Source: Boswellia sacra | Taxonomy: Eukaryota; Streptophyta; Magnoliopsida; Sapindales; Burseraceae | DNA length: 64,000 bases | Direction: 5' to 3' | Assembly (NCBI GenBank): GCA_013180625.2 | Contig: SNVD02002696.1 | Span: 36,976 to 100,975 of the forward strand | Shown: positions 7,016 through 45,414 of the stretch, piece by piece | Position numbering within the stretch: position 1 is the stretch's first letter | Layout: the number at the start of each line of letters is the position of its first letter | Notes under the pieces: model-generated | The model's input: only the letters and a program-made list of their open reading frames with translations | Database searches by the model: none | What the model was told of the DNA's origin: nothing | Program-made: the position numbers and the translations under genes

Positions 7016-7569
7016 ATGGATGCCGATATCTTTCTATCGAACCTTCGTAAATATTTCCCTTCACTTCCTCAAAATGCTGTGTTTAAAATTTATAAAGTAC
7101 GGATGACTAGACTTTGGGCATTGATGCTCCTAAATGTGCCTGCTGATATCCGATGGCTTATCGAAGCCAAGGTGAGATTGTCCGGTGAGCCGGACATTAA
7201 TCTCGCAAAATACATGCCTGGTCTAGGAAAGAGCTACTACGCCAAGAGGCGAAGAGCGAAAAGGTTACAAGTATGTTATAAATGTGCTAGATGGAATTGT
7301 AACCAGACTTGTCGTTCATTAGGTTTTGCGTCCAGGAATAGAGAAGATAAACTTTCATTTATTAAGAATGGTTGAGTAATGAGTCGCTGGATAATGTTTT
7401 GTTAACTCTCGAGTCACATTCTTGTGGACTTGTTCAGCGTGAATTGCTTAATCTATGGACACAATTTCGTGATGAATTGCAGTGTTATAGTCTAGGGAAT
7501 CTGACTAAAAACGACCCTGTTTGCCAGTTTATAAGAAAACTGGATGGGAAGCAAATCCCCGACTCATAG
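7016..7569 (+). pseudogene. E1 cysteine-rich basic protein gene (cassette gene 1), one frameshift
   Basis: With one 1-bp deletion at about 7372 this is a 184-codon gene homologous to 42670-43219 in E2. The deletion creates the stop at 7373; the frame resumes one base over and runs to 7569. Features in order: an N-terminal part with PADIRWLIEAKVR, a G-x-G-K-S motif, a basic block KRRRAKR (about residues 77-83), and a Cys cluster C-x2-C-x4-C-x3-C at 7274-7312 (residues 87-99). A C-terminal region of about 85 residues follows. The basic block directly before a zinc-finger-like cluster recalls carlavirus small nucleic-acid-binding proteins; that homology is my inference. LOG follows 619 bp downstream. 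Function is unknown, possibly nucleic-acid binding. Confidence 0.7.
7524..7543 (+). promoter_or_regulatory. Hairpin conserved between E1 and E2
   Basis: CCAGTTT, six bases, AAACTGG: a perfect 7-bp stem within the end of cassette gene 1. All 20 bases, loop included, are identical in E2 at 43174-43193. It sits in a block of about 150 nt that is roughly 90% identical between elements and crosses the stop codon. It is a candidate cis-acting RNA signal. Confidence 0.45.
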
Positions 7570-7800
7570 AAGGCGTTTCAGCCGTTACTGGACGTAAAAC
7601 CAGAGGAAGATGTGAGCCACAATCACAACTACTTGTATATTTGAATGTGTGTTGTTGTTGTCGAATTTTATTTCTTTCTTGTTTCGTTTGATCTGATTAT
7701 CAATGTTGTTTTTGTGTTGTTGTTGTTTGTTGATTTTGTTTGTTTTAATTTCAAGTTTTCTTTTTGACAAACCAGATGACTACCCCATGATATAAGCACA
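7570..7800 (+). other. Spacer after E1 cassette gene 1
   Basis: The first 70 or so bases are about 90% identical to 43220-43292 in E2 although outside the frame. The rest is T/G-rich with no coding signal. Confidence 0.45.
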
Positions 7801-7802
7801 CG

Positions 7803-8000
7803 TGGAAGACAAGTGTGGAGGTTTTGTCAACCTCCGCCGAAAGTATATCTTTACTTTTCATGCTACCCGTGGGAGACAAGTGTGGAGGTTTTGTCAACCT
7901 CCACTGAAAGTGTATCTCCATTTTCCATGCTTCACGTGGGAAACAAGTGTGTAGGTTTTGTCAAACCTCGCCGAAAGCATATCTCATTTTTTCAAATTTT
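7803..8000 (+). repeat. Three 67-bp tandem repeats, each with a hairpin
   Basis: Repeat landmarks (GACAAGTGTGGAGG type) start at 7808, 7875 and 7942, so the period is 67 bp. Copies 1 and 2 contain GGAGGTT-TTGTC-AACCTCC, a 7-bp stem. Copy 3 differs in sequence but still pairs (AGGTTT-TGTC-AAACCT). The array lies between cassette gene 1 and LOG. E2 has no such array. Confidence 0.75.
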
Positions 8001-8076
8001 GGGGCGATAAATCTGCATCGAGCAATCCCCACCGAAATTATGTCCCCATGTGTCAAATTTGAGAGTTTTACGTGTG

Positions 8077-8083
8077 TATATAT
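8077..8083 (+). promoter_or_regulatory. TATA-like site upstream of E1 LOG
   Basis: TATATAT lies about 105 bp before the LOG ATG. E2 has ATAAATA about 50 bp before its LOG ATG. An internal promoter is possible but unproven; such strings are common in AT-rich DNA. Confidence 0.25.
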
Positions 8084-8188
8084 CCATTTTGCATATTCTC
8101 AAATGTAATTTTATAACCTGTCTTGCACTTGTATCGCATAATACCTAACGTACATCATTGTCTTGCACAATTTAGAGCACTTTTAGAA

Positions 8189-8837
8189 ATGGAGAAAACA
8201 CCAATTCGGCGATTCCAAAATATATGCGTATTTTGTGGATCGCAATTTGGTAAAGATGGAGAGTTTACAACAGCAGCTCTTGATCTTGGTAGGACATTAG
8301 CTGCGAGGGGTATTCATTTGATTTATGGAGGGGGTAGTCTTGGGTTAATGGGGTGTGTGTCGACAGCTGCATCCCTAGGAGGAGCAAAGTTCTCGGCATT
8401 ATCCCTAAACCATTAGCTGTACGAGATATCGTAGGCAACACCATGGGGAAGAGTTACAGGTTTCTAGTATGCATGAGCGTATTGCACATATGGTCATTAA
8501 ATCTGATGCATTTATAGCTTTGCCCGGTGGTTATGGTACATTAGAGGAGATATTTCAAATCACCTCTTGGGCACAGCTAAACATCCATCGGAAACCCATT
8601 GGTTTGTTAAATGTCAATAATTTTTTTGATGGTTTGTTGTCTTTTCTTGATCAAGCAGTAGAGAAAAACTTCATCTCACAGTCGGCGAGGCAAATCCTGG
8701 TTACAGCTTCAACTACAGGGGAGTTAATTGACAAATTACAAGCATTCGTCTATTCGCCTGATCCAGCAATAGCTCGGATAGATTGGTTTGGAGAAGGCAA
8801 TAAGAGGCGTAAACTGGATTTAACGCTCCATCTGTAA
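8189..8837 (+). pseudogene. LOG-like: E1 LOG-like cytokinin phosphoribohydrolase, two frameshifts
   Basis: Homologous over its full length to the intact LOG in E2 and of the same length (216 codons) once two 1-bp deletions are allowed for, near 8388 and 8450. The ATG at 8189 aligns with the E2 start and has a good context (G at -3 and +4). Visible motifs: CVFCGS, GGGSLGLMG, then (third frame) [14 protein letters not shown], and a basic tail NKRRK followed by LDLTLHL. LOG enzymes release free cytokinin base from the riboside 5'-monophosphate. There is no intron, whereas plant LOG genes normally have several. As written it yields at most a 75-residue fragment. About 60% identical to E2 LOG by eye. 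Confidence 0.9.
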
Positions 8838-9993
8838 TCTCTATCTGCTGGTTTGCTTCATTTTCGTTTGCTTTCTCTTTATTGTGTTTATTTGAGTTTT
8901 TTTTTATGTCATTTCTTTTGAGTTTTTCAGGTTGTTTCTTTCACCCCAGGTAATATTTTCTAATCTTGGCTTTTAGAGTGGTGGCTTAAAAAGTTCAAGT
9001 TCTCTTGAAACGCATTCTGGATTTCTTTAATCCATAATGGCTGAATAAGGAGGCTAACTTCTAAACTTTTTAGACCCATTCTAACTGACTTGTTTGTGTT
9101 TGCTGATTTGTTGGACTTTATTATTTTCTGAGTAAGTTTAGTTTTATGTAATTTCGAGTTGTTGTGTGTTTTTGTTTTTATCAGTTTCGATTCGAAAAAA
9201 AAAACATTGTGGAAAAACCTGAGAATGGCAGAATATGGGGTTTTCTTAACTCTTGAAACGCATTCTCTCTCAGTAAATCTGTAGTTTGTTTATTTCATGT
9301 TGTTTGAAGTGTCTTGTTTCTTGTTTTGTTCTTTCATAATAAAGGTATATAGGCTGGAAACCTTAAGTCTGCGGGCTACTGGTCCTAAGGATTGTTGAAA
9401 TATACAATCTTGACTCAGGTGTAACAACGCCACGTACCTCTTTTCTTGCATTTTGTGGGTCGATGATAAGATAATGATTGAATTAAGAATAACTCTTGGA
9501 AAATGATAAATGATGCATGGATCTGTGTGCTTGAAATGTTTATTGGTTTTCGCTTTGCTTTTGATTCCTTGCGCAACATTGAGCACTGAGCTATTATCAC
9601 TGAGTTATTTGTTCACTTAGAGAAAGTTTATGTAATTTAAATGTTTCTTCAGATTTCAATGAATTCTAGAACTTGTTTGATGGTCACTCGAGGCGAAATC
9701 CTAGACTGTGCAACATTGGGGAAATGATTTAGGCCATCTTTGGACCGTTTGAGCCTTAATAGCCAACCTTGACTGAAATTGATCCCTAGTTACCCCTTTG
9801 AGCCTTTGTAAGCCTTTTTCTTTGTTAACTCACTAAAAGATTTCCTAACCTCAAATGAATTTGTTCCAAACAGTTTATCCCTTACCTATGAGCATGTAGA
9901 TCATTCACAATTAAATTTTGAGCTATGTTCTGGTTTTGGGAAGTTAGAGGAGGTTGGGATGTGTCATGAGCAATGCAAGTGAGTTCTATTATG

Positions 9994-10024
<31 letters not shown>

Positions 10025-10684
10025 GCCAATCTGTACTTATCGTCCACGTAGTTACACATTGAGGACAATGTGTTGTTTAAGTGTGGGGGAGGGGAAGTGT
10101 AATAAAAAAAAAGAAAAAAAAGAAAAAAAGAAAAAAAAGAATAAAAGATTGGGGGAGTAACCTGGTGAATTGAAATAAGTTGTGTTATAAGGGTTGAGCT
10201 CCACATAATCTTGAATGATTTATGTGTTTGTGGGTGATTTGAGCCAAATTATTATCCTTTATCATACCTTCACCCAAGCCAAACGTTACAAGCTTAATAA
10301 AGTCCTACTTGATCCTTGGTGTTGTGCATGTCTACATTAGTGGAGAGTGACTTGAAAAGCAGGCCTATGGAGTTCATTTATACACACATCTTCAATATTA
10401 AATATGATTCATTTTTATGCATAAACTCATCCGGGTTACAAGTGATTAGGTGAGAATGGCTCTACACACACACACTTGAGGAATTGAAGTGAAGCGAAAC
10501 TAATCTTTGAGATAAAATTCTTGATCACGTGCATTATTTTGAAGTTTTCCTTGGGTTATAATTAAGTACAATCTTTGAGGCCTATTTGCAAGTTGAAGCA
10601 TTTGTGTGTTTTAATTTTTCTTTGATTCTGTTTCGGTTTAGTTTTGTTTCGTATCATTTTAGTTGCTCGAGGACTAGCAAAGTC
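8838..10684 (+). other. E1 3' untranslated region
   Basis: There is no gene here. It includes two copies of a CTCTTGAAACGCATTCT motif (about 9002 and 9250), a pure A run at about 10000-10024, a short inverted repeat CATTGAGGACAATG (10057-10070) followed by a G-rich tract (about 10081-10096), and an A/G-rich stretch (10103-10145). E2 has the same motif pair, inverted repeat and G tract in the same order, so this layout is shared by both families. Confidence 0.6.
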
Positions 10685-10700
10685 TAAGTGTGGGGGAATT
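10685..10700 (+). promoter_or_regulatory. E1 polypurine tract
   Basis: AAGTGTGGGGGAATT directly precedes the 3' LTR, the normal position for plus-strand DNA priming. Confidence 0.8.
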
Positions 10701-12112
10701 TGATAGGTGTCTATTTATGTATTACTTTTATATCAATTCGTCCATGTTTCTTTGCTATATTCCTTGGTATTTTTATGTTTTTGTGTGGTTTTGATGTTTG
10801 TAGGAGTTTTGGAGCAACTTGCACAAAAATGGAGTAAAACCCTTCATTTTCACCTCTGCTAGTCAACCATCTTCTCGGATTTAATTGTATTGATATACAA
10901 TGAACCCGATGACATATTATATACCGTTGGAAAGCTCTCGAAGTCTATTTTCTGGAGAAATTTACGGTTTATAAATCCATTCAGTGTACCAAAAGTTGTA
11001 ATCAAAACAGTGTGAGATGTATAGAAATATAATTCCACAAGCCACTATAGCATGTATAATACGGGGTACTGTAGCAAGTCACTGTAGCAGAGTATTTAAA
11101 CACATTGTAGGGTTTTATTTTCATAACTTGAAGAGGGGAGAACGTGGTGGAGGCTGAAGCTCTGGAATTCTTTCATCTCTTGGAGTTCTTGAAGGAGAAA
11201 GGAAGCTTGGAAAGAGGAAGAACTACAATCCAAAGAGAATTACATCAAATTTGCTAAGTTTTTCCCTTCCCTTTCATTTTCTGGAATGTCTCCATGTTGT
11301 ATTGTATTTACCACGTTCTTAAACATGTGTAACTGAATCTGAATTGGTTGAGGGTGATTTCAAAGCCCCTGATATGGTTTTTGTAAGTTGATTGTGTAAG
11401 GAATTGTTATCCAATTCTCTAATTGAAGTTGCTTGTATTCTCCCATATTTAATGCTTATGATTGCTTGCTGATTGTATTTGAGTGGCCAACTGAATATAA
11501 TCTGGTTGTGATTTATTGCTAGACTAGAAATCTTGATCCGTAATTGTCTTGAATTTCTAATCATTAGTAGCAAAATTGTGATCAGAGATTACAATTGGAG
11601 AATATAACCTAAGTTAAATAATCCGAGCTTGTGTGTTTATTGCTTAGATCAACCTATCTTTCTTATCATAATGCATCCATTGAATTAAACTCAGAGAGCT
11701 TGTTCTAGGTTGTTTAATGGATAGAGATTAAATAAAGAGCTTGTTTTATTTAACAACAAAGTAAGGAAAGATTGGGGTAATAGAGCTTGTTATTATCTAC
11801 GGTTGATAACTTCAATGCTGTAATTAGATGACAATTCTACAATTAATTCGCAAATCCATATCTTGTGGTAGAGAAGGATCCCTTAACCAGCTTTCTCCCA
11901 TTGATTTTTCATTCAAATTTACTTTCTGTTTTGTTATTCTTTACTTGCATTCTTATTTCATTTAGTAAAGCATTCAACAAAAATCCCCCCTGTTTAGTTT
12001 ATTGTTGCTAGAAATAACAAATTCAATTAGAATCAATCCTCGTGGGAACGATATCTTACTTATCACTTTATTACTTGTGCGACTAGTATACTTACTAGTT
12101 TCGAACGCATCA
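10701..12112 (+). repeat. E1 3' LTR, full length
   Basis: 1412 bp, TGATAGG...GCATCA. It differs from the 5' LTR by only about 1% apart from the 204 bp missing there. The extra segment 11055-11258 includes AGTATTTAAACAC at 11091, the likely TATA region. Confidence 0.93.
11091..11103 (+). promoter_or_regulatory. Candidate TATA box of the E1 LTR
   Basis: AGTATTTAAACAC is present only in the 3' LTR; the 5' copy has lost it by deletion. Transcript start is not visible. Confidence 0.35.
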
Positions 12113-12117
12113 TAAAC

Positions 12118-13215
12118 ATTAAATACAAATGGTCTATTCGAGACCCAAATAGATGATTAATTCCTTACTACCATATGTGAGCCTATTCAACATCTATTGA
12201 ACCTCTATTCATACATTAAGTCATTCGTTCTTAGTGACGATCCCGCACCATCAGTGTGAGTCCACCACCACTTCATGGTATCATCCAATAATACTTCTAT
12301 CATAGTACAAACATTCATACATTCATAAATAAATAAATTATAAGTCAAACAAAGCTATAATATAGTATAATGGCATTCTAGACTAGATCTGATAATTCTA
12401 TCATGGCATTCTAGCCTAATCATAGTTATCATGGCATATTCTAGCCTAAACATGACATTCTTAGCCTAATTCAAGCAATTGACATCGATCATAGCTATTC
12501 AAGCTCAAACAAGACATTTGAGGGCAAAATGATAATTCTTACCTATTCTATACTATTTTCCAGCATGTATCAAAGCAAGTATAAGTCTTTCTTAGTATGA
12601 TTCCAATCATGTGCTCCTAAGCATTATTCTAAGCATTCACAAAAGGAAATTAAATTCCTAAACGTGTTTCTAATAAAGAAAGGATAGCAGACTTATCTTG
12701 ACACGCTTATCCATCTCGTAAAATAAATAAGGGTTAGACAATTCATAAAATCCTAAACATGATCCTAAGCATAAAATTAAACCCCAAATATGCTTATTCT
12801 AAGTAGGAAAAGTAAATAAGAAAATAAGGGGGAGAAGAGAGGACTGCTCTCAAGATGTACCCTTTTTGGGTTTAGAGCAATAGAATGCCTAAAAACTTTA
12901 TACTGGAAAAGACTTCTCAAATTCTCAAGCGTGTCTTTAGGAGGGAGAAGAGATGATTATGTTCAATAATCAGTGAGTGGAAAAGTGAGCCAAGGGGAGG
13001 TTTATATAGTTGAGGGTTGAATTTGAAAAAGGGAGCAAATTCTTTACAAAGGAAGGTTTTAATTGAAAATTTCTGAAAATAAACGACAAACAACCGGCCT
13101 GCTCACATCAAACCATCGAGTGGCTATCAAACAACTAACTGACTACAATTCAACAGCCTAGCGGCTACTTGAAAGTCGGCCAGTTGTGCTTTATTCAACC
13201 CTTCCTATTTTGTCC
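12118..13215 (-). mobile_element. Rest of element A 5' LTR
   Basis: This continues the minus-strand LTR split by E1. It shows the same degenerate text as the LTR of element C on the opposite strand, such as tagaatcatg-type repeats, and a GGCCG-rich patch near 13100. The outer end near 13215 is inferred from where copia coding text begins. Confidence 0.5.
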
Positions 13216-15050
13216 TTTTGTAGTGTAAAGCATACATGCATGAGACTTCCAATTGCGGAGGCATATAGGAATCGTCTCATTTCCTTCTCTTCTTAAGGAT
13301 TCTTATGATACTACTCTCGAGAAAGCTTAATTTTATGTCTGAAAGGTAACAATCCTTTCTTGGAATTTCGTTTTAAGAACTTGGCTAACACCTTCTCTAT
13401 GTAAAAAGCCTGAGACAATGCTAGTTTCTTGTTCTTCCTATGATCCTTTATAAGTTGGATCCGAAGAACATAACTAGCCTCTCCAAATCTTTCATTTGGA
13501 ATTGCTCAACCAGCCAAACTTTTACAGATGATAGTACCTCTATATCATTCCCAATGAGTAGAATATCATCAATGTATAGAATGAGAAAAACAACCTTTTG
13601 TCTTGTATTATCTTGTAGACACATGACTTGTCTACATTTTGAATAAGACCATAAGTTTTGATCATTTGTTCAAATCTTATGTTCCAAGATCTTTATACTT
13701 GCGTAAGACAAATAGACCTGTCTTTTCAACTTGCAAACATTTTGCTCTTGACTCTTTTCTATGAAAACCTCTAGCTACACCATATAAATGCATTCATTAA
13801 GATTCCCACTAAGAAATGTTATCTTGATGTTTATTTGCCATATCTCATAATCATAATAAGCAACAATAGATAAAAGAATGTGAATTGATTTAAGTATAGC
13901 CACTGGCAAGAAGGTCCCATCGCAATCAATCCTTTCCTTTTCGGTATAACCCATACCTACCAGCCTCACTTTAAAGGTCTTTACCTTCCTACCAGTCTTC
14001 TGTTTCTCTTGTAGACCTATTTGCAGCTATGGGTTTTATCCCATCAGGTTCATCTACAAGTTCCCAAATAGAATTAAAATACATCTATTCTATTTCTGAT
14101 TCCATAGCCTCTTCCTAACTAGCATCAACGTCACTCATTACTTCTTCATAAGTAGCAGGATCTAATTCATCTCGACCCTTATCTTGTGATACTCTTATGA
14201 ATCTATCAGGTTGTCTTACAATCCTCCAACTACTTTGAGGTACTATAACAGGTTATGTAATTGGATCTTGTATATTTGTTTTGTTCCAGATGTAAATGTC
14301 GAACCTCTGAAACTATTATTGTTGATCAAATCAATATTAGTTTCTTTATAAATCTATTCTAGGATAACTTTGCTTAGGGGCTTATAATTCTTCGTGTAGT
14401 CCACCTTTAAGTGAATTGCAGTTATACTACCAGATCTTTAACATCCAAATTAACTATAAAAGCCTTATCCTCTTGTATAATTTATGATTTCCTAAAAACA
14501 AGTGGATAATTTTGAATAACTCACATGGATTATAACATGTCAAAAAGTGTTCTATTCCTTCTCTATTTTACTCTATGTGTAATGAGTTGGAATAGTATTC
14601 CATTTCCATGAGAGGTATTTACTTTCATGATCTAATCGTAGTAATTTTGACATATTTACCTAAATGCTTTTAACCTTAATCTCTTACCTTTTGAAGTCTT
14701 CAAAAGTGTTAGATTTATGATGCATTAGATATATATATACCCACATGTTGAGTAATCATCTTATGAAATACTCATATGTGCCTCTTATTTTACCACTAAT
14801 TGGTGCATAAATATCTTTATGTACCGAACCAATACAATCTTTAGCTCTATGTCCTTTATTCTTAAAATAGCTTGTTGGAAAACTTTTCTTATTAGGCTTG
14901 ATTCACATGTTGGTATAGGTTCGACCTCTAACGAGTTTAGTGCCAATCCTCAACTATCCTTTGGATCCCTTTTAATAAGATTGCCCAGTCAAAAATGCCA
15001 AAAATAGGTCTGACTAGTGTCAGAAAATCTATACTCTTTCTTTATTCAAC
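13215..15050 (-). pseudogene. Decayed Ty1/copia pol (integrase and reverse transcriptase)
   Basis: Minus-strand remnants in copia order. GAG-pre-integrase and integrase pieces lie near 15000-14560. A linker and the RT start follow (about 14260-13980). RT core text at 13969-13775 reads VAILKSIHILLSIVAYYDYEIWQ. The RT catalytic YIDDI lies near 13580 and a YASAIGSLM-type block near 13240. Stops and shifts occur throughout; no long frame survives beyond 64 codons. Confidence 0.75.
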
Positions 15051-23337: not shown

Positions 23338-25469
23338 TGTGGGAAAAATAGATAAAACAGTCGTTAAACACAATAGGAGGATAGAAATTAGAGTTTAGTT
23401 AGAATTCAAAACCCAGTGTGCCTGTCCTTTGAGATTTTTATCACAACTGTTTGTCTATCTAGATATTAGGGTTTATACTTATAAGCCTTTAAAAAGGCGC
23501 ACTCCTGTTGTCTCGAATCCCATATTGATTTTGCATTGTTTTATATGCTCACACAATGCCTCTATTAAGAAACATCACTATTCATTCAAGCCATCGAAAT
23601 CCATTGACGCTTACACCATTTTTAGTGTTATTAGAGAGTCCAAATAGTAGAAAATTGAGAAATATTAGGAATTTTCCTACAGAGTCTTCTTGGAGGAGTT
23701 CTCAGTTTCTAGAGGTGCCCTTTGCATTATTCTAGGACGCCTATTAAAGTAAAGATTCTGCTTTTGGTAGTGCTAGAATCAAGGTAAGTCCTAAGGACAT
23801 CCTCTATTTGTTAATGCATGTTTGCTTGTTTGCTTAGAATCATGTATAGGATTATTTATGTTATTAATACGTTATGCATGTCTTAGGCTAGGTATGTTAG
23901 AATCATGCTTAGGTTATTTATGCTTTAATATTTGCTAGAATCATGTTAGGATTATGAATGATAACATGTTTTAAATCATATTAGAATAATATTGCTTATA
24001 TGTTTTTATAACATGATCATCCCCTTCTTCTTCTTCTTCTTCTTCTTCTTCTTCTTCTATTTCTTTGTTCATGGATAAGTAATAGTCGACTCACAATTGT
24101 TAGTGGGGGACTTTTGCTTTGAAATGAAAAATGCTTTAATTTATAATTCTATTTCTTATTCTAATTCTTTGTTGTCTATTGACACATGATGATGGACCTA
24201 TAATTGATGTTGGGGGATTATTATATTGACATGAACAATGTTTAATCGTATGTTAATTCATATCTAATATGTGATAATATGCTAGAACCATGTTAGGGTT
24301 AACATGTTTTGTTATGTTTTCTTCTTCTTCTTCTTCTTGTCTTCTTTTCTTGTTTGTTCATTGAGATGTGTTGGTGGACTTACAATTGATGGAGATGGAC
24401 CAACACTTTGATATGAACTTTTATTTGAAGGATGTCATGCCTAGAAACATGGCTTACGGATGAATTATTTATGATTTGATTATGTATTCTTTGATTGTTA
24501 TGCATCTTTCTTTCTCTCTTCTTATTCTTTTATTGATTAATGAGAGTTGATAAGTAATGACAGACTCAAAATTTTTGTTGAGCAGTCATTACTTTGATAG
24601 TATCCCATTTCTCATGACTGTTTTCATTACCATAATTATATTATAAATGGTTGTGTGAAAGTGACATGAATATGATGTCTAGATTGCATGCTTAGGAATT
24701 TGTTAATCTTTGAATTAATACCATGTTCTCTTTTGTTTTCTTTATGAATGGCGAACTGAGACTTAATGGTTAATAAGTGGGCTCATAATTGGTGGTGAGG
24801 GGTTTATTACTTGATTGAGTTTCCGCTCATTATTTTATGCTTTAATAGCGATTCTTCTTGATATTTGAGTTATGCATTTTTGCATGTTTCATATCCTTTG
24901 TTCGTGTGATTTCATTAATGTGATTGATGGGAGAATGTAAATGGATGATTTCCATAATTCTTGTTTTATCTCTTTTGTTTTATCTTATACATTTGTAAAG
25001 ACTTGATGTAATCCCTTTCCTCATTCCCTCATGTTTTCTGAAATTGTAATTCTATTTTCGTCCCTCCTTTCTTTCGATGTATAATATGTACTTGCCTCAC
25101 ATGTTAATAAAGATAAAACAAGTTATGCGCTAAAAAAGAATTAGGATCAATGGAATAAACATTAATATAATAAAAACTCTAGATTTAGCTAACTCGAGTA
25201 GAGGCCAAAATAACATCTGGGCAAGGTTTAATCTCGTACCTAACTTCTTGAACTTGTCTCTGAAGGGGTGAAGGTAGTTTAGGTCCAGAAGCAAGTGATT
25301 AGACTACCCACACTCACAATTTTTCCATGGTTAGAACATGGATGGTTACTCCATTTTGTTTCTTCAAGCTTGCCTTTGTAGCTTGTTCTATGTTCCCCTA
25401 AGTACTCAATGGGCTTTAACATAGTGTCGTGGTCGTAATCGCTCTGACTGGATGAAAGCGTCATTCACA
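23338..25469 (+). repeat. 5' LTR of Tat-like element C
   Basis: The end is firm: TTCACA at 25469 followed by a primer site. The start at TGTGGGAAAAATAG is a guess. Inside are (TTC)n runs (24024-24057 and 24321-24340) and repeated units built on GTGGACTTACAATTGATGG. The last 750 bp match 51030-51770. Confidence 0.55.
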
Positions 25470-25470
25470 A

Positions 25471-28883: not shown

Positions 28884-29590
28884 GTGGCCATGAATGAAGA
28901 AATCAATCCTATTGTTTTTGGAATGATGAAGAAGTAGGGGTAGATATTTCTACTTTTCTAGAATTTAAAGGCCAATTGGACAAAAGGGGACTGGGCTATG
29001 AATCTAGAGAATACAATCAATTGGTGAAAGGTAAACAGATTTACTTTCCCAAAGGAAATACATAAGGTTCGTAAAAGTCGAGGAGCCATTACATGCCATA
29101 AAGGTAGAACGGTAGGAGCATCATGGGACTACCAAGCCTAGGTTTGAGATATTCAATGATATGTAAATTTCAAGGCCTTGGTAGAAGAAAACAAGCTGGC
29201 AAAAATGGTAGAGAACTTGAGTGTCAAGCACAAGCTTACATGTGAAGGAAGACCTCAGATGAATTGGTAATCTTGGTGGAGAGAAATATTGAAGACGTTC
29301 CTATCGAAGAAGATTTTGTTTTCATTTCTAAATTGTTTAAATTCGAGGTTTGTATTTCCAAATTTGATGTAATAAGTATGATTTTGCTTCCTTGTGTGAT
29401 GTTTTTCTTAATGGTTGCATACATTATAATTCTCATTTCATGAGCGTATTTGATGTTCATTCCATTCAATCGTATTATATTAATCTCAGTACAAACATCC
29501 TAAGAATATATGCATTGCATATGATACAACTCCTAAAGAGAGGAAAAAAAATTTGAGAAAATTCTAAAAGAGAGAAGAAGTTTTCGCCTG
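28884..29590 (+). other. Protease-RT linker of element C
   Basis: Corresponds to the spacer between protease and reverse transcriptase. Stops in all frames; no separate gene. Confidence 0.5.
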
Positions 29591-30430
29591 GTCCTATGAT
29601 GATATGCTTGGAATTGATAAAGACATTGCTAAGCATACTATCCGACATACCACACATGAAGCCAGTGAAACAAAAATTAAGAAGGTTGAGACTAGAGTGG
29701 GCACAATTGATCAAAGAGGAAGTGACCAAGCAGAATAATGTTAAGTTTCTAGATATGGTGGATTACCCAGAATGGCTTACGAATATTGTACCGATTCCTA
29801 AAAAGGACGGTAGGGTAAGAATGTGTGTTGATTATGGAGACTTGAATAAGGCTTCTCCAAAAGATGATTTTCCACTATTGCATATTGATGTCTTGGTAGA
29901 TAGTGCAGCTACAAGCAGAATGTTTTCTTTTCTTGACAGGTTTTTAGGTTATAACCAGATCTTCATGGTAAATGAAGATAAGATAAAGACAGCTTTTATC
30001 ACTGAGTGAGATACCTATTACTGTAAAGTGACGCCTTTTGGGCTAAAAAATGCAAGAGCTATGTATGAAATAATGGCTACCATGTTGTATCATGACATGA
30101 TTCATCATTAAATTGAAGCCTATGTGATTATATGATGGTTAAGTCAAAAACACGTGAAGGGCATTTTGAAGCTCTAGAAAGGTTCCTAGAACGAGTTTAG
30201 TGGTATAACTTGAGGTTAAATCCAAAAAAGTGCATCTTTGGGTAACTTCAGGGAAGCTATTGGGTTACATTGCAGCGGAAAATGGAATAGAGGTAGATCT
30301 AGACAAGGTAAAAGTAATCCAAGAGCTGCTAGCACTGAAGACAAAGAAGGAAGTTCGTGGGTTTTTAAGGTAGTTATAATAAATCAGTCAATTCATTGCA
30401 AGACCCACCATAATTTGCTTACCTACCTTT
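29591..30430 (+). pseudogene. Reverse transcriptase of element C
   Basis: The 137-codon frame 29596-30009 is clear Ty3/gypsy RT: VPIPKKDGRVRMCVDYGDLN, then SFLDRFLGYNQI. After a stop at 30007 the text continues with VTPFGLKNARAMYE. The catalytic YVDD box at 30121-30138 has lost a base, so the second Asp and the frame are gone. The enzyme cannot be active. Confidence 0.85.
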
Positions 30431-31640: not shown

Positions 31641-32768
31641 GAGGCCAAGAAGATTATAGAGATATACACGGGGGTATTTGCAAGCCACACATAATACGTT
31701 GCTGTTAGTCAGGAAAATCAAATGACAAGGATTTTTTTGGTTAACTATGGAGATAGATTGTGTTCAATCCGTGAGGTCATGTCATCAAGGCTAGATACAT
31801 GGACACTCAATATATCTACCTCCTAGAGAGTTGTAGAATATGTGACGAGGATTTTTTTGGTTAACTATGGAGACAGATTGTGTTCAATCCGTGAGGTCAT
31901 GTCATCAATGCTAGATACATGGACACTCAATATATCTACCTCCTAGAGAGTTGTAGAATATGTTGTCGCCTTGCTGTTTGCTACTTGGAGAATCGGTGTT
32001 ATTGGAGAAGTGAAGCCATCAACTTCAAACGGTCATGGCTATATTGTTGTAGCGATTGACTATTTTTCAAAATGGATAGAAGTAGAATCTTTTCATAAAC
32101 TAGGGGCAAAACAAATGGCCAGATTTATTAAAAAACACATAATATACAAATTTGGTGCACCACATCATGTAGTCACAGATAATGGTGTGCAATTCCAAGC
32201 AGAAACTAAAGTGTTATTATAGAATATAATAGTGAGCATCATAAGTCCTCTCCTTATAGGCCACAAGCTAATGGAGCAGTGGAGACTGCTAACAAAAACA
32301 TCAAAAAGATGTTTGCCAAGAAGTTCCACTGGAGACTTAATTCTCCCTGGTTTATGGTGCTGAGGCCATTTTACCAGTTAAAGTTAAAGTGCAGCAAGCT
32401 AGAGTTTTGATTGAAACAGGAATTCCAGAAAACTAGTGGGTCAAAAATAGATGTGAACAATTGGTATTATTGGATGACAAAATGCTGAGAGCACTCTATC
32501 ACATGTAATTGCCTCAATAGAAGGTAGCTTGGGATTTCAATAAAAAGGTGAAGAAAAGGAAGATCAAAGAGGGTGACCTCGTGCTCAAACAAGCTAAGCC
32601 TATAATTTTTTATCCAAGAGGGAAATTGAAAATTCAAACCTAACAATAAGGGGCCTTATGTAGTACAACAGATACTATTAGGGGGAGCTATCAAAATATC
32701 AGACATGGAGGGCAATGAGTTTTTTGAACTAATAAACATCGATTGGCTAGAGAAATATTATATGTGAG
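31641..32768 (+). pseudogene. Integrase and pol end of element C
   Basis: A zinc-binding N-terminal part (about 31640-31960) contains a 120-bp tandem duplication. The core domain frame 31971-32222 has VAIDYFSKW and VTDNG, two catalytic Asp residues. The expected Glu follows in another frame near 32280 (PQANGAVETANKN). The C-terminal part with GDLVLKQAKP (near 32575) ends with the family's terminal KYY-like text and a stop at 32768. Frame breaks make it inactive. Confidence 0.8.
31723..31962 (+). repeat. 120-bp tandem duplication in integrase
   Basis: Copies 31723-31842 and 31843-31962 differ at only a few bases. The length is a multiple of three and spans the zinc-binding part of integrase. 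Confidence 0.92.
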
Positions 32769-35279: not shown

Positions 35280-35290
35280 CACTACAAGAA
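35280..35290 (+). repeat. CACTA left terminal inverted repeat
   Basis: CACTACAAGAA, matching the right end on the other strand. Confidence 0.9.
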
Positions 35291-35299
35291 AAATGATCA

Positions 35300-37937: not shown

Positions 37938-38082
37938 CTCTTCACTAGAATCTTCTTTTTCTCCTTCTCCACTTTCTATTGTTTGGTTTACACTGCTAGC
38001 CTCAACTTCAACATTAGGTGAAACTGGTCTCTCTTCAAATATTACTGCTTCAAGCCAATGAAAAAAGTCGTGTATACCAAAA
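37938..38082 (-). pseudogene. Possible captured exon, unknown protein
   Basis: An open minus-strand segment with a strong acceptor (T-rich tract then CAG at 38083) and donor (GAAGAG then GTAAG at 37937). It encodes an acidic Ser/Glu-rich stretch ending GEGEKEDSSEE. I do not recognise the protein. Position inside a CACTA with other exon pieces favours gene capture. Confidence 0.4.
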
Positions 38083-38845
38083 CTGAAAAAAAAAATTAAA
38101 GAGACGATGAAGCAAGCAATGTAATGTATGAACAAAAGACCCATTTTTAGAATAAGAAAAATAAAGTTAAACAAAATACCCAAATATCCCCAAAAGAAAA
38201 TAATAAAATCTGTTGATTATTTGTTAAAGATCAACCCCAAAAAAGAACCCATTTTTATGTTTAATTATAGAAGGAATACAGAAGGTAATATTGCTAATAA
38301 ACATTTTAAAATTTATATATCATTAAATCTAGAAGGTAATATTGCTCCAAATATTCTTTTTCGAAGTGTTGGCAATCATCAGTCAACTAGTACTTCAAAG
38401 TAAATAGTTAATAGGCTCTGTTACTAAAAATCTTTGCCTCTAACAGATTCTCTTTCCTACCTTTCTTCTTCTTCTTCTTCTTTTTTTTTTGGTTTGGTAA
38501 TAGTCACCATCTAACAATTTATTCATATCAATCATAATATTCAAGCAAACTTAAGAAGCTTCACTCAAATGACATATTCTTCATATAATTAGCACAAACT
38601 TAGTAGTATTTATCCATCTGTTATCTTCAAAATAAATAGAGCCACATATAAAAAGTATATAAAAATAAATAAATAAATAAAACAAAGAAAAGATGCATGG
38701 GCAGCAAGCAATCGTACCTTTATCCATCTCCACACTCAATCTTGAAGTTCTATCTTATCCTTGCACTTATTAGTCCATAGAAAAAAGTTTATAATCTCCT
38801 CCTATCTTCGCAACCTATACCTGCACTTCTTTTCTATCAAAAAAA
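38083..38845. other. CACTA interior up to the E2 insertion
   Basis: AT-rich, with a (CTT)n/T run at 38465-38500. No gene is supported. Confidence 0.5.
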
Positions 38846-38850
38846 TTCAG

Positions 38851-40377
38851 TGATGAACACTTAAATATGCATGTTTAATAAGAGTTTAGTTGTTCATATT
38901 GCATTAATAGTGTCATTAAATTCCTCAACTTAAGCATATTTGTAGCATTTGCATCTTTGGAATTAATTCCTCTTAATATTGGTTTTGTTACAGGTTCGGT
39001 AAAATGGGCATAACTCTCTATTTATAGATCAGAATGGTGCAATTCTTAATGTTTTGGAAAGCTGATTCAATTGTCTACAAGATTGCATTTCACAAGCATC
39101 ATCAAATTCGGGCTCTTAGTGACCAAAATTGGGCTTGAAATGAACCCATCTACAGTCTCGGCCCAGTCTGACCAGGCCTCAGTATTTGGACTGTATCTCT
39201 CAAAATACGTATCTAAATTGTGCAAATCAATATGTTCTAGAAAGCTGAGAGAAATATCTACAACTTTCATGAAGACATGTGATTAAAATTCTCAACATTT
39301 CAATGTCAAAATTGATGGTCAAAGTCGGTGCCTAATGATCCCAATTGTCAAAGATATTTACAACTAATATTTGACAATTATGCCCTTGTAATTTGACAAG
39401 TTTGCCCCTGGATGTATCTATAAATAGAGGTGCCTTGTGACCCATTAGGGCATCTTGGCCTTGGTTGGAACATTTTGGCTTTGGCTAGGATCTTGTATTG
39501 TGTTTTGTGTGTTTATGTTATTAATGAATTTCCTTTTTCTTGCATTTTATTTTCTTTCTATTATAATGTTCTTCTAATTTCTCTTTTGCTAAGGTGAAAG
39601 GGTGAAACCCTTGATATGAGAATAAGGATTCTCTAACCCTTAATATGTGCTTAATAATCTTAATCTTATAATATTTATTCAATATGATTTATATTTAATT
39701 TCTTAATCAATCTTGACACCACTCGTAAAGTGGAGGTCTTGATCCATTGTCGACAATCTTTGGCACATCAAATGCTTGGATCCTTTCTAGATGATGTATG
39801 GTTCTTCCTTACCGACACGAATCTAGTTAGGAACCTTGATTTGTTGTAGACATATAGTGATTGGCACATTGGATGCTTGAACCCATTTACAAGAAGTGGT
39901 ATAAATATTGGTAATGAAACAAATATAATTCATATAACTAAAATGGGTTAATTATCCTTATTCGAAATATCAAGGGCGGATCCCCTAACCTTAGCCTTCA
40001 TTGTTATTGTGTTAATTCCTCTTGTATTTTAATTATTCTATTGTTTATGAACTTTTATTTTATTTACTATTGTAGGTTCTACCACCTTATGAAATTGTTC
40101 TTTAATTTACTATGGTTGGTTATACCACCTATTTCCATGGATGGTTTTACCTCCTCTTGCTTTTTGTTTTATATTTGAATGGTCGGTAATACCGCCTACC
40201 ATATTACATATTTATTGATATTATCTTGTCATCTCTTCGAATCATCCATATCACATTTGCTTATCTTATAATTTGTAACGCTAAAATCCCCTTCCTCGTG
40301 GATCGACCCCGGTCTCACTGGGTTTTATTACTTCGACACTCCTATACTTGGGAGACAATCCTTTTTCGGATGTGTCA
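38851..40377 (+). repeat. E2 5' LTR
   Basis: Pairs with 45559-47084 across its whole length. CTCTATTTATAGATC at about 39018 and TCTATAAATAGAGG at about 39416 are TATA-like, the latter well placed to be the promoter. Sequence unlike the E1 LTR apart from the last bases and the primer site. Confidence 0.95.
39416..39429 (+). promoter_or_regulatory. Candidate TATA box of the E2 LTR
   Basis: TCTATAAATAGAGG is a near-perfect plant TATA box, kept in the 3' LTR near 46122. It would start the genomic transcript within the next 30-40 bases. Confidence 0.6.
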
Positions 40378-40383
40378 AGTTTT

Positions 40384-40401
40384 TGGCGCCGTTGCCGGGG
40401 A
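40384..40401 (+). promoter_or_regulatory. E2 primer binding site, tRNA-Asp
   Basis: TGGCGCCGTTGCCGGGGA, identical to the E1 site and complementary to the tRNA-Asp 3' end. Confidence 0.85.
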
Positions 40402-40612
40402 AGGTAAAAGTTGGCGTACAAAATTGTAAGTATTCTCTTTTATCATTTCTATTTTTATTTTTCTTGTATGTGTTTCTCTTTTCTCTCCCCATTTCTATTT
40501 TTATTTTTCTTGCATGTGCTCATCTTTTCTTTCTCTTTGCATTAGTTGGTAGAATTGTTTGTAGCCACTCATCTTCTTTGAAAAACATGCTCATACCCAA
40601 CCAAGGACATTA

Positions 40613-41781
40613 ATGGATTACATAAGAACTCATGCACAATCATGCCTAGTCTTCCCTCATGATGCAAAATATTTCAACCATGAATCGGATTTCATTCAAT
40701 TCTTACCCCACTTTCATGGCCTAGATGTTGAAAACCCATTTTTGCATTTGAGAGAATTTAAAGATTTTTGCAATATCTATTGTGACCTAAAATGTAGCAT
40801 AAACATCTTTACATTAAAGCTTTTTCCTTTTTCTTTAAAAGATAAAGCTAAAACATGGCTACAAAATCTTAGGTCAGGATCCATTAGTTCATGGGATGAA
40901 ATGCAACAATAATTTTTGAAAAAATTCTTTCCTCCCTATAGAACAAATTCTCTCAAAGGGAAAATCATCAATTTCACTCAAAAACAGGGAGAGACCTTTT
41001 ACCAATGTTGGGATAGGTATAAAGCATTGCTTAATACTTGTCCTCACCATGGTTTGGAAACATGGAGACTAGTTTTAATTTTCTATGAAGGTATTACACA
41101 TCAAGCTAGGCAAATGGTAGAATTAATGTGTAATGGACAATTTGAAAATAAAGACCCTGATGAAGCCATGGATTTCCTAGACTTTCTAGCGAAAAATGCC
41201 CAAAATTGGAACAATGTTGGCACTTATGAGGTACCAAGAATGTCTAGTAGAGGCATATATAACTTTAGGGAGAATCATGATCTACATGTTAAATTTACAT
41301 CCCTAGCTAGGAAAGTCGAGGACATAGAAATGTGGTCTATGCAAGAAACTGTCTGTCAAACTTGTAATTCTAGTGATCATCCTACGGATGATTGCCCAAT
41401 TGTGCCTACCTTTAGGAAAAGTCTCCATGAGCAAACCAACGTTTCAAACACTTTCCAAAGGTCAAATCCTAATCCTTACTCACAAAATTTTGGATGGAAA
41501 AATCACTTGAATTTTGATTGGATGAATGATAATAATGCACAATCTTACCAACCTTCCTTTCAATCATGTCAAAATTTTCAAAAAACTCATGATCATGCAT
41601 CTTATAAGGATCTTGAAGAAACATGAAATTCATTCATTGCAAAGCAAGAGGCTTTTAATAGTCAAGTTGCTCAAACTATGGCAAACTTGAATGATGCTCT
41701 TGAAAAACTTGAATTTGCATTTAGTACTCATGAGAAAGGTGTGTTTCCATCTCAACTCGAGCCAAACCTCATCAATCCACT
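40613..41781 (+). pseudogene. E2 gag, Athila type, with two in-frame stops
   Basis: Gag forms the particle that packages the RNA. The first 99 codons end at TAA 40910, where a Gln codon (CAA) is expected; the frame then runs on without shift to TGA at 41624 and again reads on as gag-like text to about 41778. The retrotransposon-gag core includes CPHHGLETWRL and the AKNAQNW text. A zinc knuckle C-x2-C-x4-H-x4-C lies at about 41359-41400 (CQTCNSSDHPTDDC). Two point mutations separate it from an open gene, so decay is recent. Whole-length for the core, unlike E1. Confidence 0.85.
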
Positions 41782-42384
41782 GTGAGTAATCCAAGTAGCC
41801 AACATCTAGATGAAGATTCGGTAAGTGCTCTTCTCGAAGATTCGGTAAGTGCTCTTTATGATGGTAAGGTTGATCAAGAACATATTCCTAACCCTTATGA
41901 GAAAGATGATGAATCAATCCTAAAGGGTAAGGAAGAGGTTAATCAACTTACACCTAACAAAGAAAAGACCGAATCCTCACTTATGCATCAGGCAAAGGAA
42001 TTTAACCAAAATTTTGATATTAATGAATTTTTCGAGCATGATGAAAATGAGGAAGCTAATAGGACAAAAACTAACGTGGAAGACTATATCCAAAATGAGA
42101 ATATTTCAACTCCTTTGGAAATCGGGTTAACTAGTTCTTTTGAACCAAGTATGCAACTAGTGCCCATTGCTTCTAAAGAATTTTCATTGCTTGATTTTGT
42201 ACAGGTGAAGGAGATTAAGAGTTGGAAGCCATGGTTCGAAAAAAGGCAGGAAGAAACATCCACACTCAATAATGCATGCTTTAAGGACAAACAAACTCAA
42301 ATAGTGGTAATCTCTTTCATTCTCACAAATAAAGGAAAAAGAAAGGTACCACCTCAATGGCATATTTTTGACCGTGGTAAATCA
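41782..42384 (+). pseudogene. E2 gag tail and linker
   Basis: A 277-codon open frame, shifted from gag, whose first about 200 codons are an acidic, low-complexity linker (with a 30-bp tandem repeat coding SVSALLED/SVSALYD near 41818-41860). The rest is T-rich and hydrophobic by base composition, not a likely membrane protein. Protease and pol, expected next, are absent. Confidence 0.5.
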
Positions 42385-42669
42385 CTTTCGAAGAGATTCC
42401 TCTTTTTGCATCTCTTTATAATGATTGATCAAATTTTATCCATCTATGCCATATCTTCATTTTTATTTTTATTCTTCATTTTTGCTATCACTTCTAGTTT
42501 GTTTTTATTTTATTTTGTGTGCGTTTATTTTAGTTATGTGTTTTTATTTTATTTCCCGGTCAAGTGGCGGATACGGTACTCCGTGGCTTTTAAAGTCGGT
42601 TTTTCAGTTCCCTAAAAACTGTTGCTCACCTTGCATCCATTTTCTTTTCTTCTCTCTCATTTTCTTCAC
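42385..42669 (+). other. E2 post-gag untranslated segment
   Basis: T-rich; shares GAGATTCCT and GATCA landmarks with 6680-6720 in E1. No gene. Confidence 0.5.
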
Positions 42670-43219
42670 ATGGATACCATTCTCTCAAAATTGCACAAAC
42701 ATTTTCCCTCTCTTCCTCAAAATGATTTGCTTAAAATTTATAAAGCTCGTGCAGAAAGACTAAGGTTGTTGATGTGTAAGGGTATTCCTGCTGATTTAAG
42801 ATGGTTAATTGAAGCCAAGGTTCGATTCTCTTGTGAGTTTTCAGATAATCTTGTTTCCCATATGCCAGGTTTGGGAAAAAGCTCTTATGCCAAAAAGCGA
42901 AGAGCAAAAAAGGTTACAAGTTTGTCACAAATGTGCAAGATGGACTTGTAACCAGCGTTGCCGCTCCTTGGGATATTTGTCTAACAATCGAGAGGATAAA
43001 CTACAGTTCATCAAGAATGGACTGAGTAGGGAGTCTTTGGATGATATCCGAGTGACTCTTGAGACGCATTCTTGTGGACTTGTGCAGCGTGAAATTTTTA
43101 ATTTGTGGACACAATTCCGAGATGAGCAGGAACGCTATAGTCTTGGGAATCTGACTCAAAACGACCCTATTTGCCAGTTTATAAGAAAACTGGATGGGAA
43201 GCATATCCCCAACTCATAG
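42670..43219 (+). pseudogene. E2 cysteine-rich basic protein gene (cassette gene 1), one frameshift
   Basis: Homologue of 7016-7569. The frame from ATG 42670 is open for 93 codons. One extra A in an A run (about 42905-42912) shifts it; the same protein continues in the next frame to a stop at 43219, giving 182 codons if the extra base is ignored. Order: PADLRWLIEAKVRF, GLGKSSYAKKRRAK (residues 67-80), Cys cluster C-x2-C-x4-C-x3-C at 42923-42961 (residues 85-97), then NLWTQFRDE and the conserved end. E1 is broken at a different place, so the ancestor was open. It could bind RNA or DNA; the nearest layout I know is the carlavirus nucleic-acid-binding protein. The A AAA AAG run is not in the right frame relation for -1 shifting. 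Confidence 0.75.
43174..43193 (+). promoter_or_regulatory. Hairpin conserved between E2 and E1
   Basis: CCAGTTTATAAGAAAACTGG, identical to 7524-7543, within the end of cassette gene 1. Confidence 0.45.
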
Positions 43220-43528
43220 AAGGTGTTTAAGCCGTTTCTGGGCGTAAAACCAGAGGAAGATGTGAGCCACAGTCACAACTACTAGTACATATGCATGCGT
43301 GCCATCATTTTTGAACTTTAATGCCTATTAGTTGTCATTTTTTTGAATTTGTTTGACTTATAGTGTCTTATTTCATCATCTTTTTTAATTTTTGTGGAAT
43401 CGTGTCAAATTTTTCAACAAGCAACCGAGCTACCTATTTAGATGTCATCATTAGCATATCTTTTTGCACTCCATAAATACCGCATCACTTGTTCTCCTCT
43501 TCACACATAGTTAGAGAGTTGCATAGAC
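43220..43528 (+). other. Spacer between cassette gene 1 and LOG in E2
   Basis: The first 73 bases are about 90% like E1. The rest is AT-rich. ATAAATA at 43473-43479 lies 50 bp before the LOG start and could serve as a TATA box. Confidence 0.45.
43473..43479 (+). promoter_or_regulatory. TATA-like site upstream of intact LOG
   Basis: CCATAAATACC context. With a start about 30 bp on, the leader would be about 25 nt, ending in GACATGG, a strong start context. Suggestive only. Confidence 0.3.
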
Positions 43529-44179
43529 ATGGAGGGAACTTCAAAACGTCGAATCCAAAGGATATGTGTATTCTGTGGATCTCGACCGGGTAAAAGTGAG
43601 GAGTTTGTAGAAGTAGCAAATTATCTTGGTAGGCTACTAGCTGAAAGAAAGATTAATGTGGTTTATGGGGGAGGTAGCCTCGGGTTAATGGGTTGCGTGT
43701 CAACAGCTGCACATGTAGGAGGTAGTCAAGTTTTAGGAATTATTCCTAAAGCATTGGCTATAGAAAGCATCGTTGGAAAAACGGTTGGGACAGAGATGCA
43801 AGTCTCCTCTATGCATGAACGCATGGCACATATGCTCATCAATTCAGATGCCTTTATTGCTTTACCAGGTGGCTTTGGCACTCTTGAAGAAATTTTTCAA
43901 ATTGCCTCTTGGGCCCAACTGAATCTCCATCAAAAACCCATAGGTTTGTTGAATGTTAAAAATTTCTTTGATCCTTTGATAAGTTTTGTTGATGCAGCTG
44001 TGGAACAAAATTTTATCCCTCATTCAGCGAGAAAGATCCTTGTTTCTGCCATTTCTGCTGGTGAGTTCCTTGACAAATTACAAGAAGTTGAGTATGAACC
44101 TGACCCAGCTAGTACTCAAATTAATTGGGCAGGAGGGCAAAACAAAAAGTGCAAATTGGATCTGAATCTCCGTTTGTAA
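43529..44179 (+). CDS. LOG-like: LOG-family cytokinin riboside 5'-monophosphate phosphoribohydrolase, intact, retrotransposon-borne
   Basis: A 216-residue open gene, the usual length for plant LOG. The enzyme converts inactive cytokinin nucleotides to active free bases in one step, in cytosol and nucleus. Motifs: CVFCGS (13-18), GGGSLGLMG (47-55), MHERM with Arg98, and PGGFGTLEE (113-121) holding the catalytic Glu121. The Lys that usually follows the Arg (MxxRK) is Met here. The C-terminus has a basic patch NKKCK (205-209) and LDLNLRL (210-216), which fits the LxLxL repression-motif pattern. ATG context is strong. No intron, unlike plant nuclear LOG genes, so it was probably captured as RNA. 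It lies 309 bp after cassette gene 1 and in the same direction as the LTR promoter. Many differences from the E1 copy are silent. The family call is firm; activity is not proven. Confidence 0.95.
   Translation: MEGTSKRRIQRICVFCGSRPGKSEEFVEVANYLGRLLAERKINVVYGGGSLGLMGCVSTAAHVGGSQVLGIIPKALAIESIVGKTVGTEMQVSSMHERMAHMLINSDAFIALPGGFGTLEEIFQIASWAQLNLHQKPIGLLNVKNFFDPLISFVDAAVEQNFIPHSARKILVSAISAGEFLDKLQEVEYEPDPASTQINWAGGQNKKCKLDLNLRL

Positions 44180-45378: not shown

Positions 45379-45414
<36 letters not shown>

Follow-up and report, generated by a model that had tools for sequence, protein, structure and literature searches.

A gene assignable to the flexivirus nucleic-acid-binding protein family, followed by a LOG gene, in LTR retroelements of Boswellia sacra

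Two Athila-like retroelements with similarity to LOGL4 are said to have been described in 2011 by Steinbauerova et al. LOG domains, named YgdH, are known in Ty3 consensus elements of Citrus and Populus, according to the accessible part of PMC9289625, which also describes an AlkB-type demethylase open reading frame (ORF) in orchid Ty3 elements. We analysed 64,000 nucleotides of Boswellia sacra (contig SNVD02002696.1, positions 36,976 to 100,975; the window) and found two long terminal repeat (LTR) retroelements, E1 and E2, which resemble the LOGL4/YgdH cases in having a LOG-domain ORF and in the plant groups concerned (Citrus and Populus, where relatives of the present genes also occur). In the orchid elements, too, an ORF for a regulatory enzyme has become fixed in one lineage of large Ty3 elements of plants, but the enzyme is a different one and, in the accessible text of PMC9289625, was found in one genus. 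In E1 and E2, LOG is preceded by a gene for a cysteine-rich protein (NABP), which we assign by sequence to the flexivirus family of nucleic-acid-binding proteins (silencing suppressors), Pfam Viral_NABP/Carla_C4. In these elements and their relatives, the env position (directly after the integrase where present) holds this NABP-family gene, and in the element families of this genome LOG follows it. Unlike the present case, the LOG-bearing elements of PMC9289625 are described, in the accessible part, with no mention of a neighbouring NABP, altered pocket residues, an added tail or an RNA element, and the terms nabp, carlavirus and nucleic acid-binding are absent from the main text of that paper. 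LOG-like ORFs in such elements are already in print; NABP and the pairing are unreported in the literature searched. Specifically, no report of a retroelement NABP or of NABP-LOG pairing was found in the open-access literature within the words searched; by title and abstract start, none of the open-access papers naming Viral_NABP or Carla_C4 deals with retroelements; the sequence found in cucumber is flexivirus replicase-like and not an NABP gene (accessible part of PMC3136472); and no LOG is named in the accessible parts of PMC7264820 and PMC6317226.

Both elements are whole insertions, LTRs included, each lying between perfect target-site duplications (TSDs) of 5 bp; their features are as follows.
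3598..12112, + strand: E1, a pol-less LTR element with TSD TAAAC on both sides
3598..4803, + strand: E1 5' LTR, 206 nt shorter than the E1 3' LTR and followed by the primer-binding-site (PBS)-type sequence TGGCGCCGTTGCCGGGGA
5223..6419, + strand: E1 protease-type ORF, read by eye; no Pfam family above cut-off
7016..7372, + strand: E1 NABP, with the frame broken after 7372 and homology continuing to about 7563
7501..7640, + strand: E1 copy of a conserved hairpin element, spanning the NABP stop codon
7798..7998, + strand: E1 tandem repeats of 67 nt (n=3) in the spacer between NABP and LOG
8189..8837, + strand: E1 LOG, with the frame broken between 8392 and 8409
10701..12112, + strand: E1 3' LTR
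38851..47084, + strand: E2, a pol-less LTR element with TSD TTCAG on both sides
38851..40377, + strand: E2 5' LTR
40565..41626, + strand: E2 gag, Retrotrans_gag in two pieces (2e-5 and 2e-8), with one internal stop
42670..43219, + strand: E2 NABP, with the frame broken near 42910 and read as two separate pieces
43145..43290, + strand: E2 copy of the conserved hairpin element
43529..44179, + strand: E2 LOG, intact, 216 aa, with PGGFGTLEE kept and the tail NKKCKLDLNLRL
45559..47084, + strand: E2 3' LTR

A first-pass annotation of the window had proposed that E1 (7016-8837) and E2 (42670-44179) both carry a cysteine-rich protein gene and then LOG, in the same order and on the same strand, past a deletion of pol, with shared 3' landmarks and with LTRs that do not resemble each other, and our analyses bear out this arrangement. 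NABP begins at 7016 and 42670, and LOG lies at 8189-8837 and 43529-44179. Integrase and reverse transcriptase (RT) queries gave no match inside E1 or E2, the RT test being weak in that its query was a stretch of 150 aa taken from a different element in the window; by eye, E1 has a short RT-start-like stretch after the protease-type ORF, and pol is missing beyond it. The internal DNA of the two elements matched at 6995-7651 with 42643-43301 (76.5%, E 5e-118) and at 8129-8940 with 43464-44257 (70.5%, E 2e-89), and further shorter stretches, partly A- or T-rich, were shared, including the PBS region and 3' stretches, so that the shared 3' landmarks are real. A PBS-type sequence after the 5' LTR is common to both elements, and G-rich tracts precede both 3' LTRs. 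The LTRs themselves could not be aligned between E1 and E2 (local score 33; the highest score among 30 mononucleotide shuffles was 32). The Kimura two-parameter distance between 5' and 3' LTR was 0.012 in E1 and 0.025 in E2, and the low values indicate that both insertions are young. The proposed gene identities, cysteine-rich protein and LOG, were also sustained, with the amendments that gene 1 has a known family and that the window genes are not intact, both NABP copies and the E1 LOG being frame-broken and only the E2 LOG whole.

By layout, elements of the E1/E2 type are Ty3-type, and the PBS, the layout and the literature suggest an Athila-like lineage. The Athila-type layout, with an extra sense-strand ORF between pol and the 3' LTR, is seen in L001 (a retroelement piece from outside this genome, see below) and in loci of the same genome, and the Athila-type 5-bp TSD in E1 and E2. 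In three of three other E1-family copies whose upstream sequence was fetched, the protease-type region lies directly 5' of NABP, the same as in the window, and pol loss therefore looks like a trait of the whole E1 family. The 67-nt repeats (window 7798-7998; L063 and L064) gave BLAST matches suggesting that repeat number or order varies among E1-family copies.

The whole genome (638.6 Mb, 7431 contigs) was searched for further members. Each query gave 11,271-14,491 first-look candidates, of which the best 150 were scored; at least 150 scored copies were thus obtained for each of E2 LOG, E1 NABP and E1 LOG, and a third family, E3, was found. Identities among the best 150 copies were 92-100% for E2 LOG (125 of them without stops, manual count), 73-78% for NABP with the related protein P0001 as query, and 88-100% for the C part of E1 LOG; for E1 NABP, 139 of 150 were 100% identical (manual count), which we rejected as proof of selection because the rows were ranked by score. 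Thirty loci were chosen by LOG (window copy included), and NABP adjoins LOG in 27 of the 29 that did not end too early, three of these NABPs being remnants of 78-102 nt (L022, L025 and L028); L006 and L026 lack NABP. Among 30 loci chosen by NABP, LOG is present in 29, and what lies directly upstream of NABP is an integrase in 27 and gag instead in three. L055 and L074 have no LOG, and single-gene copies are a minority in this genome. From throughout the E1 NABP list, 12 E1-family copies were picked by eye: LOG is present in 10 (L065, which lies at the end of a contig, has just the start of the gene), L074 lacks both LOG and the hairpin element, and one copy is not long enough. LOG is also present in two others, L063 and L064. 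In the databases, NABP and LOG are merged into one gene model in both Diplodiscus (P0073) and Citrus (P0087). Equal lengths of source sequences were rejected as proof of linkage in database records, since shorter coincidences are expected by chance, and the 8723-nt pair P0001/P0096 is a hint. At two places in the same genome (C3305:11775-12317 and C3673:81383-81925) NABP lies within frames of 870 and 563 aa, perhaps in frame with pol or another ORF.

The family assignment of gene 1 comes from profile matches. The E1 NABP matched Viral_NABP with E 4.7e-10 and 40.3 bits (curated cut-off 23) and Carla_C4 with E 1.4e-5 and 25.4 bits (curated cut-off 20.9); the NABP of L001 is above the cut-off of Viral_NABP (34.2 bits) and just under that of Carla_C4 (19.8), and the broken N piece of the E2 NABP is under both (16.9 and 17.8). 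When 33 family members including E1 were scanned at E<=0.01, Carla_C4 was found in 31 and Viral_NABP in 30, and the basic stretch KRRAKRL is followed by four cysteines, of which C90 and C95 are invariant in these 33 rows and C87 and C99 conserved in at least 90%. A search with the E1 NABP protein returned 90 proteins, Citrus and Diplodiscus among them, and a search with the 33-row profile returned 1060 proteins at E<=1e-3, the best 120 of which include Populus, Xanthoceras, Acer and Rhamnella. The named plants span four orders (Populus; Rhamnella; Acer, Xanthoceras and Citrus; Diplodiscus). Among the 180 relatives in the matches listed, 90 are 180-186 aa long, the whole protein being 182 aa, and their conserved parts extend past the viral match. 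A Foldseek comparison of the predicted structure of P0001 with BFVD gave 31 matches, 23 of them from flexiviruses (21 bear the name of a silencing suppressor or of a nucleic-acid/RNA-binding protein), while five of the remaining eight are nameless. On the structural side two points speak against the assignment, namely that the P0001 model is poor (pLDDT 64, pTM 0.33) and that all of its BFVD matches have E of at least 0.078, none being significant alone.

The basic motif and zinc finger are common to the retroelement protein and to flexivirus NABPs or cysteine-rich proteins such as p12 of chrysanthemum virus B, and the Pfam cut-offs are passed. Unlike the viral proteins, the retroelement NABP is 182 aa when whole, lies inside LTR elements in the env position, overlaps an RNA element and has LOG as its partner. 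Its genes have parts of LTR elements and integrase on their flanks and are not carried by a plus-strand RNA virus; an integrated RNA virus is ruled out by the full LTR anatomy, the TSDs and the integrase in kin, and viral contigs were rejected as the source of NABP relatives, the scans having confirmed none. Flexiviruses may conversely have taken NABP from plant retroelements, a direction that we consider possible though not probable: the 1060 profile matches, of which the named ones among the best 120, with those of the E1-protein search, come from plants of these four orders, and the size of half of the listed relatives, conserved beyond the viral match where the named flexivirus matches in BFVD have 62-157 aa (fragments included), are in its favour, but a larger family need not be older, and the matches beyond the best 120 may include viruses.

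At the NABP stop codon we found a conserved element of about 140 nt, made up of the final 24 codons of NABP and about 70 nt past the stop, and whole in 70 of the 79 loci examined. E1 and E2 are identical at 23 of 24 third codon positions within it, compared with 26 of 40 just upstream, and at 64 of 71 bases after the stop, and the element is therefore more alike than the codons require. Three hairpins can be formed, for which 98.5% of the pair cells in 36 distinct sequences are standard, a value reached by none of 500 shuffles; the covariation score is above all 500 shuffles, and slid controls pair at 33-60%. For example, a double change in helix 1 gives GC in 22 sequences and AU in 13, the pair being broken in one (L045), and both changes are silent by eye; helix 3 shows a single double change, in L001. 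Several observations count against a conserved RNA structure: one pair of helix 1 is broken in L045 and another in L025, and helix 2 is broken in five cells; the covariation is thin, with double changes in two of 15 pairs, as reached by 34 of 500 shuffles; further pair types are at or below the shuffles (6 versus 7.0); and the 36 rows are mostly near-copies of three families, hence few independent events. In addition, folding of single sequences was not clearly better than that of shuffles (z -1.2 and -1.6). A known RNA family was rejected as the identity of the element, there being no Rfam match at E<=1 for window 42600-43600.

The C part of the E1 LOG (8409-8834) matched Lysine_decarbox with E 4e-33. 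We aligned 110 of the best 120 matches to the E2 LOG (rows of 205-230 aa) and built a tree of 55 rows (49 of the 110, two from the window, two from Arabidopsis and two bacterial), in which all 51 rows from the window and the databases fall in a single clade (support 99/99); by its sequence, gene 2 is placed in a distinct LOG clade. As arguments to the contrary, the 110 rows are the best matches to the E2 LOG, with a retroelement location shown for a minority, and the plant host LOGs in the tree are two, both from Arabidopsis; more host LOGs could put the retroelement clade inside the plant LOGs. Some of the gene models annotated as LOG or LOGL, Populus providing examples, fall in the same clade, and annotators should be warned that these may be retroelement genes.

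Plant LOGs (AtLOG3, 2a33; AtLOG8, 1ydh) and the retroelement LOG are alike in fold, in the catalytic Arg and Glu and in PGGxGTxxE, with 48-50% identity. The catalytic residues (R98 and E121 of E2) are kept in 103 and 106 of the 110 rows, respectively, the PGGxGTxxE motif is present, and 36 columns are invariant across 39 LOGs; the structure was predicted with confidence (pLDDT 87) and has the fold of AtLOG3 (E 3e-23), the tail being of low confidence. Unlike plant LOG, the retroelement LOG is read as one uninterrupted frame, has the equivalents of CgLOG Lys100 and Glu125 replaced and ends in an extra basic and LxLxL tail, the AtLOG3 match spanning residues 3-200 of 216. Specifically, the Lys100 equivalent is M, I or L in 108 of 110 rows and the Glu125 equivalent Q or H in 104 of 110, these being K and E in all four cellular LOGs; in CgLOG both residues are part of the adenine/prenyl site (accessible part of PMC4979012). 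The basic tail contains near-invariant Trp and Lys, a variable linker and then LxLxL (LDLTL in E1, LDLNL in E2), which lies within the last 12 residues in 94 of the 102 rows reaching the C terminus and in 6% after shuffling. As a motif match only, this agrees with the LxLxL consensus of the ethylene-responsive element-binding factor-associated amphiphilic repression (EAR) motif (accessible part of PMC9956375). A C-terminal EAR-type motif on a parasite-type protein is likewise found in the effector HaRxL21 (accessible part of PMC7446885), unlike which LOG is encoded by a genomic retroelement and its binding to TOPLESS (TPL) is only predicted from the motif. Such a function is made less certain by the shortness of LxLxL and by the statement, in the accessible part of PMC7446885, that an EAR motif alone may fail to bind TOPLESS.

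Divergence of the two genes was estimated by aligning the frame pieces separately and pooling them. Between E1 and E2, nonsynonymous (dN) and synonymous (dS) divergence and their ratio, omega, were 0.229, 1.686 and 0.136 for NABP (bootstrap 0.07-0.26, 116 codons) and 0.232, 1.300 and 0.179 for LOG (bootstrap 0.08-0.28, 197 codons), i.e. synonymous sites are near saturation and protein change is constrained; between E2 and E3, omega was 0.19-0.21 for NABP and 0.32-0.35 for LOG. Both genes have long been under purifying selection. The first-pass annotation had considered the pair old and not captured once, and it is indeed old and recurrent, with dS near saturation, several families, many genomic copies and several plants; a one-off capture is ruled out by the several families and plants, and the view that E1 and E2 are recent copies of one element by the unalignable LTRs and a dS above 1.

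Whether the pair was kept vertically or swapped between lineages can be judged from E3 (L032 and kin), which has integrase, NABP and LOG. The E3 3' LTR (one copy, L062) aligns weakly with the E2 LTR (73% over 96 columns, 80% over 46) and not with that of E1, and the nucleotide identities of E3 NABP and LOG are about 83% and 76% to E2 and about 76% and 72% to E1. The order of relatedness among the three families is thus the same by LTR, by NABP and by LOG, an argument for descent rather than swapping; the NABP tree, built from 35 of the 180 relatives listed and five further sequences, does not decide between the two, since it groups E1 with P0001 (91/92), E2 with P0033 (97/90) and E3 with P0009 (98/76), but does not reject a forced clade of E1, E2 and E3 (p of the approximately unbiased test 0.255). 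We consider it unlikely that recombination (template switching) recently exchanged the cassette among unrelated LTR families, so that gene and element histories differ. The E1 and E2 LTRs are unalignable where the genes align, and distantly related Athila elements recombine (accessible part of PMC2410132), as such a swap would lead one to expect, but a recent date is ruled out by the E1/E2 dS of 1.3-1.7, E3 ranks alike in LTR, NABP and LOG, and E1 and E2 retain weaker similarity outside the genes, in the PBS region and 3' stretches.

L001 is a 3.3-kb piece of a plant-type retroelement (DAIEQH010000041.1) in a metagenome-assembled genome (MAG) of 'Candidatus Nomurabacteria'. Its integrase (rve 2e-16, H2C2 1e-12) ends about 205 nt before an intact NABP, the hairpin element is present, and no LOG was found in the 983 nt past NABP, the best of 118 LOG queries giving E 0.03 over 13 residues. 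The two-gene cassette of the first-pass annotation therefore holds as a neighbourhood, in 27 of 29 and 29 of 30 loci, and not as a fixed unit: the pair is separable, and, judging from L001, was probably assembled in two steps, or else LOG can be lost for good. The bacterial records, i.e. L001 in its MAG and a similar protein, P0072, filed under Acinetobacter baumannii, are probably contaminated.

Within the E1 family (window + 12 copies, leaving out L074, which lacks the stretch, and L076, which is too short), the mean pairwise difference was 1.1% in the 3' part of NABP, 0.44% in the NABP end and element, 3-7% in the spacers, 3.6% in the N part of LOG and 10% in its C part. NABP and the hairpin element seem to be needed by each E1-family copy, and the low divergence there, set beside a decayed and often broken LOG, suggests that LOG is not. 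In addition, one E1 subfamily seems to have been amplified while carrying a shared LOG frame break, 106 of the 150 best E1-LOG matches ending in the same 142-residue frame (manual count; the query came from a frame-broken copy, favouring such copies). Among the NABP-chosen loci, whole LOG frames (strict pattern) occur in 14 of 21 E3 and one of eight E2 loci, with a 222-aa frame in three of those eight.

The best explanation of the whole, which we favour with moderate confidence from sequence comparisons, is that in these Ty3-type elements NABP favours its own transcript and LOG acts in trans. NABP would be a nuclear zinc-finger RNA/DNA-binding protein that shields the transcript from small-RNA silencing and/or marks it for packaging through the hairpin element overlapping its stop codon, which would explain why the pol-less E1 family, borrowing replication enzymes, keeps NABP and the element. 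LOG would work as a phosphoribohydrolase whose base/prenyl pocket has changed; it could shift modified adenine nucleotides of the cytokinin type and/or, by its basic and EAR-type tail, engage TOPLESS co-repressors in element-active nuclei; acting in trans, it would be dispensable to an individual copy. The part concerning NABP, by which it may counter silencing or select its own RNA, appears more likely than that concerning LOG. Some of our data do not sit easily with this explanation: the E1 copies were drawn from matches sorted by their NABP score, and it is the part outside the query on which the contrast depends; in E2, NABP is often broken too, with no contrast between NABP and LOG; a constant NABP and an optional LOG are seen in L001 and the E1 family, not in E2; the whole NABP frame is present in only nine of 30 LOG-chosen E2 loci; and the whole LOG frame (strict pattern) is present in 15 of 30 NABP-chosen loci.

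Several viral NABP-type proteins are silencing suppressors and pathogenicity determinants, and p12 of chrysanthemum virus B is a transcription factor and an inducer of hyperplasia (accessible part of PMC12172455). Cytokinin, like p12, is linked to cell proliferation, so dividing meristem cells might be a shared target of NABP and LOG, an attractive link. Plant LTR elements live under small-RNA silencing. If our explanation is true, these widespread elements would hold, at the env position, a gene of a known silencing-suppressor family whose purpose is to counter that silencing, and the cytokinin-type enzyme that they encode, with its co-repressor motif, would be a rare instance of hormone signalling being influenced by a genomic parasite. 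A bolder version, in which an old and large plant retroelement clade resembles a vertically inherited virus with a cis-acting suppressor and a re-purposed LOG (for a different N6-modified nucleotide, and with a co-repressor-docking tail), from which flexiviruses may have taken the suppressor, seems doubtful to us. That the two genes are functionless passengers, a LOG transduplicated from the host and a piece of virus that became endogenous, both hitch-hiking with the element, would fit the many broken copies, the seeming amplification of the E1 subfamily with its LOG frame break (106 of 150, favoured by the query) and the lack of LOG in L001, but is quite improbable, and already unlikely for NABP taken by itself, in view of the between-family omega of 0.14-0.35 for both genes, the invariant columns of LOG and the uniform size of half of the listed NABP relatives.

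Other repeats are present in the window outside E1 and E2. An A+T-rich satellite of at least 16 copies of units of about 111 nt lies at 58323-60076, two tandem copies of a 120-nt unit, 98% alike, at 31723-31962, and a pair of direct repeats, 83-89% alike and belonging to another genome repeat family, at 24807-25323 and 51157-51667. A piece resembling Ty3 reverse transcriptase was seen by eye at 29557-30006, and distant integrase pieces, with about 30-53% identity to the L001 integrase in short stretches, were found at 31962-32195 and 51786-52224.

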